This document shows, piece by piece, positions 20,955 through 41,581 of a stretch of 64,000 nt of DNA. Both the position numbers and the translations under genes were made by a program. The stretch covers positions 930,001-994,000 of the forward strand of contig NZ_CP046315.1 in assembly GCF_009730335.1 (NCBI RefSeq). Direction: 5' to 3'. The notes beneath the pieces are model-generated. The model saw only the letters and a list, made by a program, of their open reading frames with translations. It was not told the origin of the DNA and made no database searches. Numbering within the stretch: position 1 is the stretch's first letter; every line of letters begins with the position of its first letter. This stretch comes from Schaalia odontolytica. GTDB lineage: Bacteria; Actinomycetota; Actinomycetes; Actinomycetales; Actinomycetaceae.

Positions 20955-22370
20955 ATGAGCGATTTTCAGTTAGAAATAGGTGACAGTATTAGTGGTCTAC
21001 TTACCGATGGTGTAGAAGGTGCTCCATGGGTTGGAGCGACGCTAAAGGTGGACCGTCGCAGAGGTCTACTGGTCGAGGTGCCGTATCTGCAGGGCGCGGA
21101 TGATGGGCAGTTTGAACATGTTCGACACTGGTTTGAATCGCGGAAAGCTCCGACGATTATGGAGCTACTTACCCCAAAAGGTGCTGTCGGCTTATTTGGT
21201 ATCGTATGGGTGGGCTATCGTGCGCCATTTGGGGGCTGGAAGGCTTCGGTTGGTAAGCTTCAGCCCTCAGTTGCAGTACTTGAATCGCGTAATGGGCGAT
21301 TTGAAGACCCTCTTGTTATAGATGAAGTATATAGCTGGATTGATGGTCTGCATGGCTGGTCGGGCTTGAGTGCTGTGAGTATTGAACCTTCAGTAGATGA
21401 GAGGAATATTGCCAATGAGCTTACGCTGACGGTGAAGTCGGAACTGGTGCTTGAGTGGGTGCAAGGCAACGCGAATATGCGGATTCAATCAATTTGGTCT
21501 GAGGTGTCTGAGTCAGATGGATATCAGCGAAAAGTCTTGATTGCTGATGATGTGTCACTGATTAGCTCTTTTCCTTCAGGTCCGAGGGGTTTTGAAGATC
21601 ATTATCGTGAACAACAGAAGGTTCGTCACTTCATGACGTTCATGTATGGGCAACAATTGTTCTTTCGGCGCCATGCTCTCCGTGATGAACGGTATTCTTT
21701 TATGCTTGATGGTCGAGAAGACTTGATCAAGCCGCGCATCCAGCTTATTAGTTGTAGGACGTTTGCTGACTCCGTTCGTGACGTGCCCTCTCGTGATAAG
21801 TTGAACGATCTGCTTGCTAACTTCCATGCGGTCGGTGCGGATGGTATGGAAGCGTGGTGTGTTGAGTATGAGAAGTGGGAACGTTTTATTCTCCCGAGTG
21901 TGAATGTTCTTGGTCGTGATGGTGTGTTTGCTGAAGATGTCATCCTCTCAACGTCGATGAGCATGGAAGCGGCCGGTGAGCTGATTGGTGAGTGTGATGG
22001 TGAGGAATGTTTGAAAGGTAGGGGCAGAAATCTGCCAGTCGCATTGTGTATTTACCGGTGTTTGCATGTTCTTGAGTTGGAGCTGCCAGGTGAATTCAGT
22101 GGCATGGTTGCTTTGTCTAGGGCCATTGCAAATACGTATAACGCTATTAAGCATTCAAGCCGTGGTAGTTTTCCTGATGGTCGCGAAGTCAGGATAGTAT
22201 GTGACCTTAATAAGCTGATTGTTAGACTTCTCGCATTGCATGTTGCGAAAGTTGATTTAAATGCTGTTATTCGGAGTTATGTTTCGCTAGCTTTAGATAA
22301 CATTGTTGCCAAGATGTCGTGGTGGTCTATGAGTGTTGATGAGGATGGTAAGTGGCGTTATGAAGTGTGA
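20955..22370 (+). CDS. ApeA-like HEPN-domain protein, candidate antiphage gene
   Basis: 471 residues. The N-terminal half is beta-rich (DSISGLLTDGVEGAPWVGATLKVDRR...) and resembles ApeA N-terminal domains as remembered. The C-terminal third is helical and has NTYNAIKH (residues 393-400), a HEPN-like N-x3-H motif in the place of the catalytic RN-x3-H, with Tyr where Arg is expected. ApeA proteins are single-gene abortive-infection systems with HEPN ribonuclease activity. GC content is far below that of all neighbours and the gene lies between two 80-bp direct repeats, both signs of acquisition. The family assignment is by pattern recognition and needs a profile search. Confidence 0.55.
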   Translation: MSDFQLEIGDSISGLLTDGVEGAPWVGATLKVDRRRGLLVEVPYLQGADDGQFEHVRHWFESRKAPTIMELLTPKGAVGLFGIVWVGYRAPFGGWKASVGKLQPSVAVLESRNGRFEDPLVIDEVYSWIDGLHGWSGLSAVSIEPSVDERNIANELTLTVKSELVLEWVQGNANMRIQSIWSEVSESDGYQRKVLIADDVSLISSFPSGPRGFEDHYREQQKVRHFMTFMYGQQLFFRRHALRDERYSFMLDGREDLIKPRIQLISCRTFADSVRDVPSRDKLNDLLANFHAVGADGMEAWCVEYEKWERFILPSVNVLGRDGVFAEDVILSTSMSMEAAGELIGECDGEECLKGRGRNLPVALCIYRCLHVLELELPGEFSGMVALSRAIANTYNAIKHSSRGSFPDGREVRIVCDLNKLIVRLLALHVAKVDLNAVIRSYVSLALDNIVAKMSWWSMSVDEDGKWRYEV

Positions 22371-33237: not shown

Positions 33238-33264
33238 GTGTCTGTCAAAGCGGTTAAGCGCCAA

Positions 33265-33467
33265 AATTCCCAGGGTTTTTTCAGGTTGTCTTGCTGTTGT
33301 CGCAAGGTTCGATCCTTACACTGAATGTCATCGCAAGGGAATACGGCACGGACCATGAGGGTCCGGGACATGCCGACGAGATTTTTCGAGGAGCTTTCTG
33401 GGAAAACTTGCACTGTGTTGATGGGATAAGCCGAGGGGCCGACCGTAAGGTCGGCCCCTCGGCTTAC
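33265..33467 (+). ncRNA. Candidate structured RNA, copy 1 (upstream of the second subtilase gene)
   Basis: Noncoding block closely repeated at 37697-37901. Conserved parts in order: CTTGC-N7-GCAAG (33290-33306), a TACACT -10-like hexamer (33317-33322), the word CAAGGGAATACGGCACGG, a two-part hairpin (CGGCA 33344-33348 with TGCCG 33371-33375 enclosing CGGACC 33349-33354 with GGTCCG 33360-33365), GAGGAGC, AACTTGCACTGTGTTGATGG, and a perfect 18-bp terminal hairpin (33427-33444 with 33449-33466, loop GTAA). Stem positions differ between the copies in compensatory pairs, evidence for RNA structure. It may be a small RNA or a 5' leader/attenuator of the protease gene at 33620. Ends are approximate. 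Confidence 0.6.
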
Positions 33468-33619
33468 ATTCGGGCCTGCACAAAATGTCAGTGTGTGGAC
33501 ACTGGGCCATCTATCGGACATGCATACTGCACAACTGGAAGAACTTTCGCATAATGGGACGGCGCGTCACCCGGACGCGCACCAGATCGTCATCTCGTCG
33601 ATACGTAAGTGAGCCATTG

Positions 33620-36600
33620 ATGACCCATCACTCCACCCCGGCACTCGCGCTCGCCGCAGCCCTCGCCCTGACCGGCGTGAGCGTCCCGGCACTCGCAGCG
33701 AGCCCGCAGCCGGGCGGTGTCCTCCCCGCCAACCCCACCCACGCCTCGTCGAAGGACACGCAGTCGGGTACACGAGTCGAGGACGCGCTGCTGTCCATCC
33801 GCCAGGCCGAGGCCGGGGGAGCGACCCTGCCCGACGCCTCGTCCGCGCAGGAGGCGGCCGACGACACCCCGACGACAATCATCGTCCAGCTGGAGGATGG
33901 AACAGCCGGTAGCTCCACGCAGGCCATGCGCGACGACGTGAAGGCCCGCATCGCCTCCGCTGTCGCGGGAATCGTCCCCGGTGCGCAGGTCACAACCGTG
34001 CGCGAGTACACCAATGCGTTCGTCGGCTTCGCCATCGAGGCGCCCGGCTCCGCTCTCTCCGCGATCCAGAAGGTCGAGGGCGTCAAGACCGCCTTCAACG
34101 AGGGCGTCCACAAGCCGATGGACACCGGTGCCGAGGGAAGCGGTGCGCCCGTCCTCAAGAACGCCTCGTCCCTGGCGATGACGCGCGCGAACGAGGTCGT
34201 CCTCAAGGGCGATCGTCAGGTCATCGAAGTCATCGACTCTGGCCTGCAGACCGACCACGACGCCTTCGCCGGCTCGATGGACGGCGTGGATGTGCGCATG
34301 AGCCAGGCCGACGTGCAGGCCTTCGCGGGCAAGCTCCCGCACGGCGGAGCGGGCACGTACGTCAACAGCAAGATCCCCTTCGCCTACGACTACGCGGACA
34401 ACGACGCCGACGTCGTGCCCCATTCCGAGAAGGACCTGTCCCACGGTACGCACGTCACCGCGATCGCGGCCGCCAATGCGGACGTCCTGCAGGGCACCGC
34501 GCCCCACGCGCAGATCGTCGTCGCCAAGGTCGCCTCGGACGAGGACGGCTCGATGCTCGACAGCGCCCTGCTGGCGGCCCTCGATGACGCGCTCGTCATC
34601 AAGCCCGACGTCATCAACCTGTCCCTGGGCGACGACTCCGGCATGAGCAGCGACGCGGGCAGTGTCTTCGCCGGCGTGTACGAGAAGCTCGCCGCCGCTG
34701 GCATCACCGTCAACGCGGCGGGCGGTAACGCCTTCTCCAACGCCTATGGCAACAACTCCGGCCAGAACAAGCCGTTCGCGACCGACCCCGACACGGGCAC
34801 GCTCGGCGAACCCGCCTCCTACAAGTCCACCCTGGCCGTCGCCTCCGTTGATAACCAGGAGGCCCTGTCCTACGTGAGCCTGGGCGATCGCACAATCGCC
34901 TACCGCACCGCCCTCAACGGTCAGGGCGAGGCCGTGCGCGGCCTGCGCGACGTCCCCGAGAAGACCTACCGCATCGTCGACGCCGGCGCTGGCGGCACCG
35001 ACCGGCTCGAGCAGTACGCGGGCACCGACCTCTCCGGCGTGATCGTCCTCGAGGATAGGGGCGGTACGGACTCCCGCGACGGCTCGGCGATGACCGAGGA
35101 GCTCAAGGCGCGCAACCTGACGGCCCTCTCACCGGCACCCGCGGCCCTCATGGTCGCCGATACGGATGAGGCATACACGCCCTACCAGGCGATCCTCGGC
35201 TCGACCACGTCGATGCCGACGGTGACCATCACCAAGCGTGACGGGGAGGCGATCCGCGAGGCCTTGGCCGCCGCCAACGGAGCCGACGTCACCGTGACCG
35301 TCACGCACTCCGGCATCGTGCTGGCCTCGAACAACCCGACGGCCTCGGAGTTCTCGGCGTGGGGTGTGGCCCCCGACCTGACCCTCAAGCCTGAGATCGC
35401 TGCCCCCGGCGGCGACATCATGTCGGCCTACCTCGGCAACGAGTACCAGCGCCTGTCGGGCACCTCGATGGCATCCCCGCAGGTCGCGGGAATCAGCGCC
35501 CTCGTGCGCGAGCGCCTCGCGGGCGATCCTGCCTTTTCTGGAATGAGCGCCGAGCAGAAGAACGCAGTCGTCACCAACCTCCTCATGGGCACCGCCCACC
35601 CGCTCATCGACGTCGAGCTGAGCGACGGCACCTACTACTCGCCGCGCAGGGTCGGCGCGGGCGCCGTCGACGCGCTCGCAGCGACCACCGCAACCGTCTA
35701 CCCGACCGTCGTCGGCGCCGCCGATCCCTCCCGGCCCAAGGCCGACCTCGGCGACGGGACGAAGGGCTGGACCTTCCAGGTGCAGCTGACCAACCTCTCC
35801 GACGCTGCCTACACCTACACTCTCGGCGGCCAGGCGCTCTCCGAGATGGTCGAGGGGGGCCTCTTCCTCGAGCACTCGCAGAACTGGGTGGGCGCAGGAA
35901 TCTCGCTGACCTTCTCCGGTGACGGCGTCGCCGAGGCCGGGGACGCCCAGCAGATCACGGTCCCCGCGATGTCGAACGCCACCGTGACCGTCACCGTGAC
36001 CCCCGAGTCCGAGTTCGCGGCCTTTGCCTCGGAGAACACCCCGAAGGGCACCTTCATCGACGGCGCCGTGACCTTCACGAGCGAGGACGGGACCCCGAGC
36101 CTGACCGTGCCCTACCTGGGCTTCTACGGCTCGTGGGGAGCCCCGGACGTCTTCGACGGCAAGTGGTCGGACGACGAGACGACACCCGTGCACGTCTTCC
36201 GTTCTGCGCTGGTCAACGCGCACTCGTCCATCCCGCTGGGAGCGCTGAACCCGCTGTCGGACAAGCAGGACTCGAACCTGGTCACCACGATCAACACGCA
36301 GCGCCTCATCACCTCGCGTGCCAAATGGGCGGGCGCCCCCGACAGGATCGCGCCGATGACCGGCATGCTGCGCTCGGTCCCGTCTATGTCTGTCACCTAC
36401 CGCAACTCCGCGGGCGAGTTAGTGCGCTCCTACACGATCAACCGCGTGCGCAAGTCCCTCTACGACCTCGAGACCGGCTGGACGAAGCCGGGTGAGTTCG
36501 CCGGTGAGGAACCCTTCTTCGATGGCTACGACCAGTCCGGCAACGAGCTGCCCGACGGCGCCTACACGGTGACGATCGAGGCTGCGACGGATGGTCCGTC

Positions 36601-37597
36601 CTCGCACACGCACCAGATGAGCTACGAGTTCACGCTGGACACGCAAGCACCCGTCATCTCCAACCTGACGGTGAGCGGCGAGGGCGATGCCCGTACGGTG
36701 TCCTTCGACGTCACCGACGCCTCGCCCGTGGCCGGCATCGACTTCCACGAGGATGCCGACGGCACCTGGTACTACCGCAAGCTCGTCGAGGATGACGGCG
36801 AGATCCTGGCCGACGGCACGCATCGCTACCACTTCGCCGTGCCCGTCTCGGAGCTGAAGGCCGCCTGGGCGCAGCAGGGACGCACGGACGAGGCCCCGGT
36901 GACCCCGTACCTCTTCGCCTGGGACTGGGGCGTCAACCCCGCCAAGCAGGAGGTGCGCCTCCAGGGCGATCCGACTCCTGCTCCGACCCCGGCACCTGAG
37001 CCGACGGTGGATCCGACGCCCGCTCCCGAGCCGACGCCCGCTCCCGAGCCGACTCCGGCTCCGAGCGTGGATCCGTCCCCGGTGCCCGCGCCCCAGGGTG
37101 GGGCGTGGATCAGTGATTCGGTCGGCTGGTGGTACCGCTACGCAGACGGTTCGTACCCCAGGAACGGTGCTGCCCTCATCGACGGAGCCACCTATCGTTT
37201 CGATGCCAGCGGATACATGCGCACCGGCTGGGTGAGCGAGGCTGGTTCGTGGTTCTACCACGACGCTTCGGGTGCTCAGGCGAGTGGCTGGGTGAAGGAT
37301 GGTGCGTCCTGGTACTACCTGGATCCGGCGACGGGTCGCATGGTCACCGGTTGGCTGCTTGATGGGCTGACCTGGTACTACCTGACACCCGGCAGTGGCG
37401 CGATGGCGACCGGTTGGGTCAAGGACGGCTCATCCTGGTACTTCATGCACTCCAGCGGCGCGTTGACGACCGGGTGGCTGCGCCAGGGCTCCTTCTGGTA
37501 CTACCTGAGCACCGACTCGGGTGCCATGTACACGGGCGGGCACTGGATCGGCTGGAAGTGGCACTACTTCGCCGAGAACGGCGAATGGAACGGCTGA
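33620..37597 (+). CDS. Secreted subtilase with C5a-peptidase-like domains and surface-binding repeats
   Basis: 1325 residues from ATG 33620, which gives a normal signal peptide (MTHHSTPALALAAALAL...ALAAS); an open frame begins at 33485 but without signal features. Prodomain with TIIVQLEDG; S8 catalytic residues Asp206 (EVIDSGLQT), His275 (LSHGTHVT) and Ser616 (SGTSMASP), with a PA-like insert; Fn3-like domains (FYGSWGAPDVFDG); a Pro-rich linker around 1118-1158; choline-binding-type repeats to the end. It closely parallels residues 1-1110 of the 2222-residue subtilase but lacks the Ig-like and LRR parts. The flanking RNA-like element copies suggest shared control. Confidence 0.92.
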   Translation: MTHHSTPALALAAALALTGVSVPALAASPQPGGVLPANPTHASSKDTQSGTRVEDALLSIRQAEAGGATLPDASSAQEAADDTPTTIIVQLEDGTAGSSTQAMRDDVKARIASAVAGIVPGAQVTTVREYTNAFVGFAIEAPGSALSAIQKVEGVKTAFNEGVHKPMDTGAEGSGAPVLKNASSLAMTRANEVVLKGDRQVIEVIDSGLQTDHDAFAGSMDGVDVRMSQADVQAFAGKLPHGGAGTYVNSKIPFAYDYADNDADVVPHSEKDLSHGTHVTAIAAANADVLQGTAPHAQIVVAKVASDEDGSMLDSALLAALDDALVIKPDVINLSLGDDSGMSSDAGSVFAGVYEKLAAAGITVNAAGGNAFSNAYGNNSGQNKPFATDPDTGTLGEPASYKSTLAVASVDNQEALSYVSLGDRTIAYRTALNGQGEAVRGLRDVPEKTYRIVDAGAGGTDRLEQYAGTDLSGVIVLEDRGGTDSRDGSAMTEELKARNLTALSPAPAALMVADTDEAYTPYQAILGSTTSMPTVTITKRDGEAIREALAAANGADVTVTVTHSGIVLASNNPTASEFSAWGVAPDLTLKPEIAAPGGDIMSAYLGNEYQRLSGTSMASPQVAGISALVRERLAGDPAFSGMSAEQKNAVVTNLLMGTAHPLIDVELSDGTYYSPRRVGAGAVDALAATTATVYPTVVGAADPSRPKADLGDGTKGWTFQVQLTNLSDAAYTYTLGGQALSEMVEGGLFLEHSQNWVGAGISLTFSGDGVAEAGDAQQITVPAMSNATVTVTVTPESEFAAFASENTPKGTFIDGAVTFTSEDGTPSLTVPYLGFYGSWGAPDVFDGKWSDDETTPVHVFRSALVNAHSSIPLGALNPLSDKQDSNLVTTINTQRLITSRAKWAGAPDRIAPMTGMLRSVPSMSVTYRNSAGELVRSYTINRVRKSLYDLETGWTKPGEFAGEEPFFDGYDQSGNELPDGAYTVTIEAATDGPSSHTHQMSYEFTLDTQAPVISNLTVSGEGDARTVSFDVTDASPVAGIDFHEDADGTWYYRKLVEDDGEILADGTHRYHFAVPVSELKAAWAQQGRTDEAPVTPYLFAWDWGVNPAKQEVRLQGDPTPAPTPAPEPTVDPTPAPEPTPAPEPTPAPSVDPSPVPAPQGGAWISDSVGWWYRYADGSYPRNGAALIDGATYRFDASGYMRTGWVSEAGSWFYHDASGAQASGWVKDGASWYYLDPATGRMVTGWLLDGLTWYYLTPGSGAMATGWVKDGSSWYFMHSSGALTTGWLRQGSFWYYLSTDSGAMYTGGHWIGWKWHYFAENGEWNG

Positions 37598-37631
37598 GGC
37601 CTAACGCGCAGCACTGACAGCGCGTAACGCA

Positions 37632-37663
37632 GTGTGCGCCCCCGGGAAACCGGGGGCGCACAC
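37632..37663 (+). terminator. Terminator of the second subtilase gene
   Basis: Perfect 14-bp stem GTGTGCGCCCCCGG / CCGGGGGCGCACAC closed by a GAAA tetraloop. Confidence 0.85.
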
Positions 37664-37696
37664 TCGTATTGGGATCACTCAGTTATCTGCGGGGTT

Positions 37697-37901
37697 AATT
37701 TCCCAGGATATTCTCAGCTCACCTTGCCATTGCCGCAAGGTTGGGTCCCTACAGTAGGTGTCATCACAAGGGAATACGGCACGGGCCACACGGGCCCGAG
37801 CAATGCCGACGAGACATCATTGAGGAGCCTTCTGGGACAACTTGCACTGTGTTGATGGGATACGCCGAGGGGCCGACCACGAGGTCGGCCCCTCGGCGTA
37901 T
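37697..37901 (+). ncRNA. Candidate structured RNA, copy 2 (downstream of the second subtilase gene)
   Basis: Homologue of 33265-33467, at the same distance from the preceding terminator but with no plus-strand gene after it, which favours an independent small RNA. Equivalent elements: CTTGC/GCAAG (37723-37739), TACAGT (37750-37755), outer stem CGGCA 37777-37781 with TGCCG 37804-37808, inner stem CGGGCC 37782-37787 with GGCCCG 37793-37798, and an 18-bp terminal hairpin 37861-37878 with 37883-37900 (loop ACGA). Relative to copy 1, the inner stem changes A-U to G-C and the terminal stem changes A-U to C-G with both partners altered. Confidence 0.6.
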
Positions 37902-38044
37902 CTGCACCTGGAGCGACTCGGGGGAACTGTGGGTGAAAAGTGCTATGCGTTGGTGTGGTGGCGCCGTGGTCTATGCTGCGAAGTCTGTGCGGTGGGGTTT
38001 TGTGGTGGGGCCTGTGGTGCGTATTTCCTACGGCGGAAGTTGTC

Positions 38045-38130
38045 TTCTGGATAGGAACGGCTCTTCTGGATAGGTTATTTTCCTATCCAGAAGCCGATGA
38101 CCTATCCAGATCGTCGTTTCCTATCCAGTT
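38045..38130 (+). repeat. Array of 11-bp motifs on a 19-bp pitch, inverted about an AT-rich centre (copy 2)
   Basis: Two direct copies of TTCTGGATAGG (38045, 38064), a 7-base centre TTATTTT, then three inverted copies CCTATCCAGA(A) (38082, 38101, 38120), all at 19-base steps. The build, the centre length and parts of the spacers (TCGTCGTTT here, TTGTTGTTT at 14738-14746) match copy 1, so the two are diverged copies of one element. Confidence 0.8.
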
Positions 38131-38461: not shown

Positions 38462-40402
38462 TCAGAGGCGCTCAAAGCCAGCGTCCCACGCGGCGCGCAT
38501 GGGGTTCGCGTCTGCGACCAGCTGATCGAAGCGCAGGTCGGCGATGTCGATGACCTCGCCGAGTGCGAAGCGAGCCTCGCGGGCGGGGGAGTGCTCGACG
38601 CGACGCCAGCCCGAGGACAGCAGATGCTTGCGGTCCACCACGTTGTCCACGCAGATGACCAGCGGGCGGCCAAACTTCTCGCGGTAGGCGGCAGCCAGGG
38701 CGCGCAGCTCCTCGGCTTCTTCGGAGGACACCTCGCCCACGGACAGGGATGAGGTATCCGAGCTGGCCTGCTCGTCGCCCGCACCATCGAGGACCAGGGA
38801 GACGACGTCCGTGTAGGACGCGATGAGCTCCTCGGCCTCCTCGGGGCTGGCCGCCAGGACCGCGTCCTCGAAGGAGGATCGCAGCTCAGACACGGAGGCG
38901 AAGGGACGAGATTCCCAGGCGCGCTCGACCGGCCACGTGTGCGACGAGAACATCGAGGCGAAGGTCGCGACGAACTGGTCGCGATCCATTGCGTTGACGT
39001 CGTCCAGGTTGATCTTCTTGCCGTCCACCACGGCCACGTCCGGCGAGGCCTGGCGTCCGATGTGGAAGAACAGGATGTTGAGGATGATGGCCGTCAGCGA
39101 GCCGATGGTCACGCCGGAGCCGAAGATGATCTGCAGCCAGGAGGGCATGACCGAGACGATGCCGGGCTTGAGAGTCACGAGGAGGGCTAGGCCGATCGAC
39201 GTGGAGACGATGACGGCGTTGCGGTTGTCGCGCAGGTCAACCTTCGCCAGGGTCTGGATGCCGACGACGGCGACGTTGGCGAACATCGCCAGCGAGGCGC
39301 CGCCGATGACAGGGGAGGGGATGGCGGCGACGATGGCCGCGGCCTTCGGCAACAGGCCCAGGATGATCATGAAGACGCCCGCGGCGGTGACGACCCAGCG
39401 GGACTTCACGCGGGTTAGGCGCACGAGGCCGACGTTCTGCGCGAAGCAGGTGTAGGGGAAGGAGTTGAGGACGCCGCCCAGCAGCGTGGATAGGCCGTCG
39501 GCGCGCAGGGCGTTAGCGATGTCGCGCGGGGCGATGCGCTTGCCCACGACCTCGCCGGTGGCGAAGACGTCGCCCGTGGTCTCCACGGCGGTCACAGCCA
39601 TGACGATGATCATGGCGAGGAGCGCGGTGGCGGAGAACTTCGGGATGCCGAAGTAGAAGGGCGTGGTGATGCCCAACCAGCTGGCTTCTCCCACGCCCGA
39701 GAAATCGGTCTTGCCCATCACGAATGCAACGCCCGTCATGATAACGAGGGCGAGAAGGACGGATAGGGTCCCGATGAAGCCCTTAAAGAGGCGCTGGATG
39801 ATGACGATGATCGCGATCGTTCCAAAAGCGAAGCCGAGTGCCTCGAATGTTGCGGTTGCCTTCGCTGCATCACCGGTGGCCTGATCTGCCCAGGCGACGA
39901 TGTCTCCGGCGGAGACAGACAGGAGCGTCGTGCCCATGACGGTCAGGAGCGTACCCGTGACGATCGGCGGGAAGAATCGCAGGAGCTTGGCGAAGAAGGG
40001 CGCCACCAGGAAGACGATGAGGCCGACGGCGATGATGGAGCCGTACATGGTGGCCAGGCCGGTCGTCGGGTCGGCGCCGGGCGGCGTGGCCGCTGCTCCG
40101 ATTGCGATGAGGGGGGAGACGGCGGTGAAGGTGACGCCCTGGATGAGGGGGAGCTTCACGCCAATGAAGCGGCCGATGCCGGCCGACTGGATGATGGTGG
40201 CGATGCCACAGGTAAGCAGGTCTGCGTTAATGAGGTGGACCAGCGTATGGTTGTCGAGCCCGAGGCCGGAAGCAATGACGAGCGGGACGACCACGGCGCC
40301 CGCGTAGAACGCGAGGACGTGCTGAATGCCCAGAATGGTGAGTTTCCCAAAGGGAGGGACTTGATTGACGGGGTGGGGAGCGGACGAGGGGCTTGATGCC
40401 AT
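38462..40402 (-). CDS. NCS2-family purine/uric acid permease fused to a degenerate OHCU-decarboxylase-like domain
   Basis: 646 residues from the ATG at 40402 (MASSPSSAPHPVNQ). Residues about 15-455 are an NCS2 xanthine/uracil transporter: QHVLAFYAGAVVVPLVIASG, INADLLTCGIATIIQ, the substrate segment VETTGDVFATGEVVGK and SFPYTCFAQNVGLV. Residues about 472-646 match the OHCU decarboxylase (UraD) fold: MDRDQFVATFASMFSSHTWPVERAW and AYREKFGRPLVICVDN. The HPDLA motif with the catalytic His is replaced by SYTDVV, and the S-x-x-EQ motif is not evident, so decarboxylase activity is doubtful. The domain may instead regulate uptake. An N-terminal extension into the region of lacI is rejected. Confidence 0.82.
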   Translation of the reverse strand: MASSPSSAPHPVNQVPPFGKLTILGIQHVLAFYAGAVVVPLVIASGLGLDNHTLVHLINADLLTCGIATIIQSAGIGRFIGVKLPLIQGVTFTAVSPLIAIGAAATPPGADPTTGLATMYGSIIAVGLIVFLVAPFFAKLLRFFPPIVTGTLLTVMGTTLLSVSAGDIVAWADQATGDAAKATATFEALGFAFGTIAIIVIIQRLFKGFIGTLSVLLALVIMTGVAFVMGKTDFSGVGEASWLGITTPFYFGIPKFSATALLAMIIVMAVTAVETTGDVFATGEVVGKRIAPRDIANALRADGLSTLLGGVLNSFPYTCFAQNVGLVRLTRVKSRWVVTAAGVFMIILGLLPKAAAIVAAIPSPVIGGASLAMFANVAVVGIQTLAKVDLRDNRNAVIVSTSIGLALLVTLKPGIVSVMPSWLQIIFGSGVTIGSLTAIILNILFFHIGRQASPDVAVVDGKKINLDDVNAMDRDQFVATFASMFSSHTWPVERAWESRPFASVSELRSSFEDAVLAASPEEAEELIASYTDVVSLVLDGAGDEQASSDTSSLSVGEVSSEEAEELRALAAAYREKFGRPLVICVDNVVDRKHLLSSGWRRVEHSPAREARFALGEVIDIADLRFDQLVADANPMRAAWDAGFERL

Positions 40403-40567
40403 CTGTGTCTCCTGGACCTTTATCCAAGTGTTGAAGGGACCCCTCCATTCTCTGCGATCGGGATAAGTGTTGTATGAGTTATTTAGAAAGTGTGGCGAGT
40501 GATATGTTCCGGGTGCTTTTCGTTTACGATGTGAACAAAGCTGGACGTATGCGGGAGGGAGGTCGGT

Positions 40568-41581
40568 ATGTCGCGCAATGGTCGTCCTCCGTCGATGGCG
40601 GACGTGGCGGAGATGGTCGGTGTCTCGCATCAGACGGTGTCTCGCGTTGTGAACGGCAAGGGGCGCGTATCGCCTCGGACACGTGAGCGCGTGCAGGCCG
40701 CGATTGAACAGCTGGGATACCGCCCGAACTCGGTTGCCCGCGCCCTGGTGACCGCCCGCTCGGGCATTATCGGCGTCGTGACCACAACCTCGGCCCACTT
40801 CGGTCCCTCCTCGATGCTGGTGGCCCTGGAGGTCGCCGCCCGCGAGGCCGGGCTTTTCACGTCGGTTGTGGCCCTCGATCGTTTCGGTCCCGACGACGTG
40901 GCCAGTGCCTTCGACCACTTCTCCTCCCTGGCGGCCGAGGCGATCGTGGTCATCGCGCCGGTGGATTCTCTTGCCGAGACCGTGGCATCGCAGGGCGCGT
41001 CTGTGCCGGTTGTTGCGGTCTCCGGCGGGCGCACGTTCGGTCGCGGGGTGTCGGTCGTTCACGCGGACCAGCGCGGAGGTGCGCGCGCGCTCGCGGAGCA
41101 CCTGATGACGCTCGGTCATCGCGATATCGCCTGCGTGGCGGGTCCTCAGGAGTGGTTCGAGGCGCGTGAACGCGTGGCCGGGTGGCGCGAGGCGATGGTC
41201 CAGGCGGGTCTGCCGATGCGCGAGCCGCTCGTCGGCTCGTGGGAGGCGCGCTGGGGGTACGTTGCAGGACAGAACATCGTCGAGGATGACCTGCCTGATG
41301 CCGTCATGTGCGCGAACGATGAGGTCGCGGTCGGCCTCCTCCGAGCCTTCGCCGAGGCCGGGGTGAGTGTTCCGGGTGACGTGTCGGTCGCGGGTTTCGA
41401 CGACGTGCCGATGGCCGCCTACGCGGGGCCGGGGCTGACGACAGTGCGTCAGGATTTCGCGGACCTTGGGCGCTGCGCGCTTGAGGCGGTCAGCTATGCG
41501 CTCGACGGTGAATCGGTGGACACGTACGTGCGTCCAACGCGCCTCGTTGTGCGCGGTTCGACGGGAGTTTGCCCTCGTTAG
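40568..41581 (+). CDS. LacI-family transcriptional regulator of the arabinose cluster
   Basis: 337 residues, preceded by GGGAGGGAGG. The helix-turn-helix is MADVAEMVGVSHQTVSRVVNGKGRVSPRTRERV; the hinge helix (GYRPNSVARAL) follows and then the periplasmic-binding-protein-like ligand domain, with the conserved ANDEVAVGLLRAFAEAG and SVAGFDDVPMAAY segments. Adjacent araD, araA and a sugar ABC transporter suggest L-arabinose or a related sugar as inducer. Centrally symmetric AACGTT-core sites in front of araD and of the transporter gene are its probable operators. Confidence 0.85.
   Translation: MSRNGRPPSMADVAEMVGVSHQTVSRVVNGKGRVSPRTRERVQAAIEQLGYRPNSVARALVTARSGIIGVVTTTSAHFGPSSMLVALEVAAREAGLFTSVVALDRFGPDDVASAFDHFSSLAAEAIVVIAPVDSLAETVASQGASVPVVAVSGGRTFGRGVSVVHADQRGGARALAEHLMTLGHRDIACVAGPQEWFEARERVAGWREAMVQAGLPMREPLVGSWEARWGYVAGQNIVEDDLPDAVMCANDEVAVGLLRAFAEAGVSVPGDVSVAGFDDVPMAAYAGPGLTTVRQDFADLGRCALEAVSYALDGESVDTYVRPTRLVVRGSTGVCPR

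Follow-up and report, generated by a model that had tools for sequence, protein, structure and literature searches.

A window of 64,000 nucleotides from the genome of Schaalia odontolytica (contig NZ_CP046315.1, positions 930,001 to 994,000) carries two blocks, 33264-33466 and 37697-37902, on either side of a gene for a subtilase with choline-binding repeats. They were originally predicted to be two copies of a structured RNA-like element of ~203 bp. As claimed, the blocks are a repeat, alignable end to end with 81% identity over 203 nt (77% over a segment of 118 nt and 91% over one of 79 nt), and both compensatory pair changes named at the time are present: in the central stem, A33352-T33362 of copy 1 is replaced by G37785-C37795 in copy 2, and in the terminal stem A33429-T33464 is replaced by C37863-G37898. 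The limits of the element had to be redrawn. Each block is composed of a promoter of ~60 bp followed by a predicted RNA of ~140 nt that ends in a perfect terminator-like hairpin, so that promoter, and not RNA, makes up ~62 bp at the start of each block; the terminal stem, put at 18 bp, has this length in copy 1 and reaches 20 bp in copy 2. We propose, with a probability of about 0.7, that each block is a self-standing small RNA (sRNA) gene, and that both belong to a multicopy sRNA family that would be activated by the response regulator PhoP and act in trans. The features of the locus are as follows.

33268..33322, + strand: predicted promoter of copy 1, with half-sites TTCCCAG, TTTCAG, a degenerate third and CAAGG at 11-bp spacing and the -10 hexamer TACACT at 33317-33322; one mismatch to the promoter pattern, position weight matrix score 64.1
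33327..33466, + strand: predicted sRNA copy 1, ~140 nt, 5' end placed from the -10 and 3' end from the hairpin; 3' module 92.5 bits (the sequence is in the model seed)
33344..33375, + strand: central hairpin P2 of copy 1, with covarying pairs (helices 2 and 3)
33409..33427, + strand: core TGCACTGTGTTGATGGGAT of copy 1, from the core search and the family alignments
33427..33466, + strand: terminator-like hairpin of copy 1, 18 bp perfect, GTAA loop; helix 4 of the covariation analysis
33620..37597, + strand: subtilase with choline-binding repeats (Pfam), a neighbour between the copies and outside the RNA; start codon chosen by us
37701..37755, + strand: predicted promoter of copy 2, with the -10 hexamer TACAGT at 37750-37755; two mismatches to the pattern, matrix score 58.5
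37760..37903, + strand: predicted sRNA copy 2, ~144 nt; 3' module 90 bits (the sequence is in the model seed)
37777..37808, + strand: central hairpin P2 of copy 2, from the covariation analysis
37843..37861, + strand: core of copy 2, from the core search
37859..37902, + strand: terminator-like hairpin of copy 2, 20 bp perfect, ACGA loop

The original prediction had overlooked the promoter box, as well as the core and a third copy in the genome. This third copy (C1:421080-421145) was found outside the window by a search of the same genome, and follows genes that look tad/flp-like by inspection of the sequences. The core, YGCACUGUGUUGAUGGGAU (YGCACTGTGTTGATGGGAT), was present with up to two mismatches in all 34 same-genus genomes examined, our own included, with one to four matches each and none in the control. 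The same search matched 10 of 114 other genomes, several of these matches being chance-like. The core matched 78 times in 69 fetched stretches. Without L071 and L133, which have two mismatches and no promoter, 76 members remain, of which 62 are nonredundant; some weak loci of the core search stand outside this set. Searches with the whole element or with the promoter only recovered largely the same loci.

Throughout the 62 members the elements follow one order: half-sites, -10, a CAUCA-like 5' end, a variable central hairpin, a purine-rich stretch (GAGGAG or AAAGGGA), a (T)CGGGAAGACT-like stretch, the core and the terminator. Across the 52 members aligned in A4, the 14 nt TGTGTTGATGGGAT are invariant. 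The central hairpin is exchangeable between members, and four short members (L093, L095, L131 and L132) are without much of the middle. By extraction the RNAs measure 89-164 nt, with 51 of 62 at 115-145 nt. L066, from genus g19, could be aligned at the core only, and no box was seen there. Tandem copies of the RNA, ~320 or 1090 nt apart, occur in some genomes (L127, L074, L128). Members of the window type, type A, often adjoin relatives of a permease and of leucine-rich repeat (LRR)/subtilase surface proteins with choline-binding repeats; many type-B members have a helicase-like family as neighbour, judged by inspection, and the remaining members lie elsewhere. Action in trans is therefore favoured by the varied neighbours.

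To delimit the family we also used a model, R1, with which genuine members score ~37-93 bits and fall in genera g1, g23, g15 and, weakly, g19. R1 added a few same-genus loci with a more diverged core, e.g., G025:C8:170549. It matched in 138 of 213 family genomes and 234 of 396 order genomes, but among the matches listed, those outside these four genera reached at most 36 bits, many covering the terminator only (positions ~47-87, often on both strands), and they were not counted as members. A score with R1 is no proof by itself, because opposite-strand matches at the members' own terminators reach 42 bits. An exact 22-nt core pattern was found in 46 contig stretches titled Schaalia, Actinomyces, Pauljensenia, Gleimia or, as metagenome-assembled genomes, Actinomycetaceae/Actinomycetales. 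A few matches bear the titles Sanguibacter keddieii, Xylanimonas cellulosilytica or Trueperella pyogenes (L145, L150, L157, L160, L173, L174), which are probably wrong. No exact core was found in viral contigs. Scans of the window elements against Rfam at gathering and relaxed thresholds returned only sub-gathering noise, and a literature search, with most subscription journals outside its coverage, yielded no earlier description of the family.

The promoter is rigid in its geometry. In 58 of the 62 members the distance from the first half-site to the -10 is exactly 55 bp, and all 58 have a TA...T hexamer; the distance is 56 bp in three, and L066 is not alignable. CAG/AAG cores recur with a period of 11 bp at positions 5, 16, 27 (degenerate) and 38, the last half-site lying 13 nt before the -10, and the consensus of the box is TCNCAGG-N4-TNNCAGG. 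When searched as a degenerate pattern with up to three mismatches, this promoter matched only the three RNA copies in its own genome (control 0). In 35 genomes of the genus it gave 67 matches in 31 genomes as compared to 7 in the control, and by our count 55 matches, in 28 genomes, lie at these RNAs. With a matrix built from 53 of the 62 members, source members scored between 15.5 and 67.0, and the best site in the 64 kb after the two window copies scored -7.3.

Covariation was assessed in alignment A2, which holds 19 of the 21 type-A members (L112 and one near-duplicate were omitted), on a structure of 35 pairs comprising a helix between 5' end and core, a two-part central hairpin and the terminator. 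Both-sided changes were seen in 21 of the 35 pairs, with 96.1% of cells paired; they concern 7 of 11 pairs in the central hairpin and 14 of 19 in the terminator. None of 500 shuffles scored as high on any of five measures, and sliding the 3' partners by 1-3 columns left only 27-44% of cells paired; both controls favour the structure somewhat, as it was drawn from the same related sequences. Folded with their terminators, copy 1 and copy 2 were more stable than shuffles (z = -4.75 and -6.08), as compared to z = -0.76 and -3.34 for shorter pieces without terminator that included some promoter. Because much of the folding z comes from the terminator, the case for structure is one of covariation and not of stability. 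Selection on RNA structure, as proposed from the two copies, is supported by these relatives. The opposite picture, in which stems are not conserved and unpaired positions are, agrees with the data in its latter half only: the stems covary, and the core, mostly unpaired, is conserved too. In L112 (G012:C47) the terminator is without most of its second arm close to a contig end, reflecting an assembly break or a rearrangement.

Six OmpR-type regulators are encoded in the genome. One of them, at C1:625372-626091, has a box of the RNA-promoter type just upstream of its start; the frame downstream of it resembles a histidine kinase by inspection. At the other five loci the best sites were not seen directly upstream of the regulator, the start of the L217 regulator being unsettled. 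The box at C1:625372-626091 scores 6.4, and since several sites in the 64 kb score equally high and this value would not stand out, the argument rests on conservation. Orthologs with 84-100% identity are present in 34 of the 35 genomes. In the 30 upstream regions fetched of these 34, the best box was measured against random 166-nt pieces of the window; it lay above the 99th background percentile in 26 regions, and all 30 passed the 95th. Exactly 13 nt after the second half-site, the same spacing as between last half-site and -10 of the RNAs, 29 of 30 regions carry a hexamer NA...T. The nearest ATG, GTG or TTG follows this hexamer after 6 nt in 20 of 30, which suggests that the regulator mRNA may be leaderless.

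Among solved structures, the closest relatives of this regulator are chains named PhoP (E 2.3e-85 to 2.4e-80), the next protein following at 8.5e-50. The respective entries, PDB 3r0j and 5ed4, we take to be PhoP of Mycobacterium tuberculosis. NCBIfam models at E ≤1e-60 were PhoB and RpaB only, both under their cut-offs. MprA had been considered as the regulator and was dropped after the structure comparison gave PhoP chains as the closest. In PMC4832192, PhoP sites are described as TCACAGC repeats with a strict 4-bp spacer, arrays of three and four motifs being bound better than two. The RNA promoter has the same 11-bp period (7-bp repeats, 4-bp spacer) and multiple half-sites; the consensus is TCACAGC there, as compared to TCNCAGG/TTTCAGG here. 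By sequence comparison, PhoP as the probable regulator of the RNA family is well supported. One good-looking promoter match is common to two genomes with no core nearby (G006:C1:141182-141236 and G022:C1:1879419-1879473), perhaps another PhoP target. Genome G033 (L303, G033:C16:27549-27701) encodes CsrA and is without a close PhoP ortholog, the only one of the 35 on both counts.

We envisage that the PhoP-type regulator, encoded elsewhere in the genome, would bind the half-sites as a tandem array and activate both the RNA and its own gene. By analogy with Mcr7 and the csRNAs, the RNA would then act on mRNAs in trans, with base pairing at the core, beside the terminator, as the most likely mode. 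In the own genome, the complement of the 19-mer core with up to three mismatches has three sites besides the copies, with ~1 expected by our estimate and 0 in the control; a 15-mer complement with up to two mismatches has two, as compared to one in the control. The better 15-mer site was rejected as a target. It lies inside an open reading frame of 476 amino acids on the other strand, which looks nitrate/nitrite transporter-like, and the mRNA would therefore carry the core and not its complement. As no long complementarity beyond chance was found, pairing through a short seed, as in Mcr7 (PMC4038636) or the csRNAs (PMC8186281), or binding of a protein may be considered.

Several observations weigh against a PhoP-activated, trans-acting sRNA family. 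The sRNA genes are predicted from sequence, and no long complementary target beyond chance was found in the own genome. By our count, 12 of the 67 promoter matches in the genus lie away from the RNAs, and 7 of the 35 genomes have no promoter match with up to three mismatches at the RNA. G033 has the RNA and a box with three mismatches, but no close PhoP ortholog, only a paralog of 50% identity. The box at the regulator gene is weaker than most boxes at RNA genes, and the 30 regulator regions, being from related species, do not count as independent. The constancy of the core is partly by construction, because the members were collected by the core itself. No clear U run is seen at the hairpins, and by itself the 5' module shows no unusual stability (mean z of about -1 over 62 members, 26 of them below -1). 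The 5'-end/core helix shows no two-sided change in its five pairs; three have one-sided changes that kept G-U or U-G, and a few cells are unpaired. As weak extra support for this helix, the first 11 nt of the RNA can pair with the core over a helix of at least 6 in 42 of 62 members, as compared to ~16% of 11-mers taken elsewhere in these RNAs.

The same features could be read as those of a decoy, in which the core and GGA-rich stretches titrate an RNA-binding protein under control of a response regulator. CsrB and RsmZ titrate CsrA in this way, and multiple copies, a regulator-type promoter, a conserved core on an exchangeable scaffold and, by inspection, several GGA motifs per RNA would all fit. 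A search for CsrA (PF02599) itself, however, gave a match in a single genome of the 35 and none in the own genome, which leaves another protein partner; we consider a decoy possible but doubtful. As to the activator, a different OmpR-type protein might take the place of PhoP, e.g., the 50%-identical paralog at C1:466269, since G033, with its RNA and no close PhoP ortholog, has such a paralog. At the paralog locus of the own genome, however, the best box-like site lies downstream of the gene and not at its promoter, and a PhoP-type gene with a box is present at all 30 loci fetched, making another activator unlikely.

That the blocks would be something other than sRNA genes we regard as more improbable still. 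The subtilase gene follows copy 1 in the same orientation, and a 5' leader of the protease had accordingly been put forward in the original prediction, next to an independent small RNA pair. The latter is supported, the family search having added a third copy; a cis-acting leader appears very improbable, given that the RNAs each come with a promoter and a perfect terminator-like hairpin, which in copy 1 precedes the gene, that a convergent gene lies after copy 2, and that different genes adjoin copy 3 and many relatives. A duplicated terminator or other repeat at the DNA level, devoid of RNA function, would explain why the strongest hairpin is terminator-like and why such hairpins dominate the weak model matches, but is hardly compatible with the fixed promoter geometry, the covarying central hairpin and the conserved core. 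Just as little likelihood remains for a small encoded peptide: the purine stretch before the core resembles a Shine-Dalgarno sequence, yet the frame changes from member to member with its spacing from the core, and no conserved start codon or reading frame was seen by inspection. A PhoP-activated sRNA family therefore remains our preferred interpretation.

Beyond the genus, the promoter pattern matched in 129 of 213 family genomes, from 20 of 36 genera, with some matches in the control as well, so that a single match outside the genus proves nothing. In genus g4, we counted 37 matches among those listed as compared to 7 control matches. We then surveyed what follows the promoter at 50 such loci, of which the search had given 30 (all g4) and we had chosen 20 in six other genera; all 50 were scanned with Rfam at differing thresholds. 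Four loci (L305, L317, L327 and L333; all g4) carry the Actinomyces-1 RNA, at 85-106 bits with a gathering threshold of 39.1; it begins 5 nt downstream of the -10. All three loci chosen in g28 (L346, L347 and L352; two genomes) carry a diverged relative of the window RNA with CATC at its 5' end and TTTGAGATGGGGAA at the core position; only L352 gave a full-length R1 match, at 30 bits. At L334-L336, L351, L348 and L349 (g17, g18, g32) the promoter is followed by apparent, mutually different predicted RNA genes with hairpin loops such as GCGTGGA, and Rfam gave no match to these up to E 0.5. The remaining 37 loci have, in 34 cases, an open reading frame of at least 100 amino acids starting within 120 nt. 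As this is likewise true of 5 of the 13 RNA-type loci, such frames are weak evidence for mRNAs. Of three downstream proteins analyzed with Pfam, L319 is a trypsin-like (HtrA-type) protease, and no family was assigned to L330 and L332. The g4 loci L319 (1501-3054), L308, L321, L322, L326 and L331 have the promoter before frames of like length, 477-485 amino acids to the end of the stretch.

These data raise the tentative idea, to which we give somewhat less than even odds, that across the family a PhoP-type regulator keeps the rigid promoter geometry while the sRNA behind it is exchanged: the window RNA in the Schaalia-like genus, its diverged relative in g28, Actinomyces-1 in g4 and perhaps unnamed others. 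If so, small RNAs would form a main output of PhoP that is conserved, with the orphan Actinomyces-1 standing in functionally for the window RNA family.

Of the genes around the two copies, the subtilase has its longest open frame from 33485; its start was taken as 33620, 153 nt past the end of the copy 1 hairpin. Right after copy 2, the octamers CTATCCAG/CTGGATAG occur inverted and repeated over ~80 bp (38047-38128), possibly a cluster of binding sites. On the minus strand, the one open reading frame at 38462-41119 combines a permease of the xanthine/uracil type with an OHCU decarboxylase domain. Elsewhere in the window, the product of 20955-22370 (+ strand) has an ApeA domain at its N terminus (PF18862); this gene is a candidate for anti-phage defence.

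Compared with known systems, the window RNAs do not behave as a cis-regulatory leader or riboswitch, as they are not continuous with an open reading frame and have no constant downstream gene in relatives. They would constitute an sRNA family, absent from Rfam, for which a likely regulator, start, end and conserved core can all be specified. The Actinomyces-1 RNA (Rfam RF02928) is likewise a structured small RNA from the same bacterial family, and at 4 of 50 loci examined outside the genus it stands immediately after the same promoter pattern. Its fold differs, however, no common core was seen, and the RF02928 model matched neither the window copies (E ≤10) nor the RNAs of 20 relative loci (E ≤1). 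Its k-turn is a subject of PMC8191799, and our literature search, with the coverage given above, found no link to PhoP. The promoter may offer a regulatory handle on this orphan RNA.

Mcr7 of M. tuberculosis is, according to PMC4038636, a PhoP-controlled RNA of ~350 nt by northern blot that acts on tatC. Like Mcr7, the window RNA would be a small RNA controlled by PhoP, the two regulators belonging to one protein family; the lengths differ (~350 versus ~140 nt), the comparison being one of description and not of sequence, and none of the 46 contig stretches with the exact 22-nt core is titled Mycobacterium. Control of small RNAs by PhoP might thus be a wider actinobacterial habit. The csRNAs of streptococci, which depend on CiaR (PMC8186281), likewise occur as several similar RNAs in each genome, placed after direct repeats for an OmpR-type regulator, but belong to another phylum and are another RNA, with a CiaR box TTTAAG-N5-TTTAAG instead of TCNCAGG-N4-TNNCAGG. 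The window RNA shares with them the several copies (three in the own genome) and the direct-repeat box at a fixed distance from the -10. The promoter pattern of g4, which also precedes a trypsin-like (HtrA-type) protease, parallels CiaR and HtrA, the latter reportedly being CiaR-regulated. With the PhoP regulon the window RNAs share 7-bp direct repeats separated by a 4-bp spacer and, G033 excepted, a PhoP-type gene with a box of its own.

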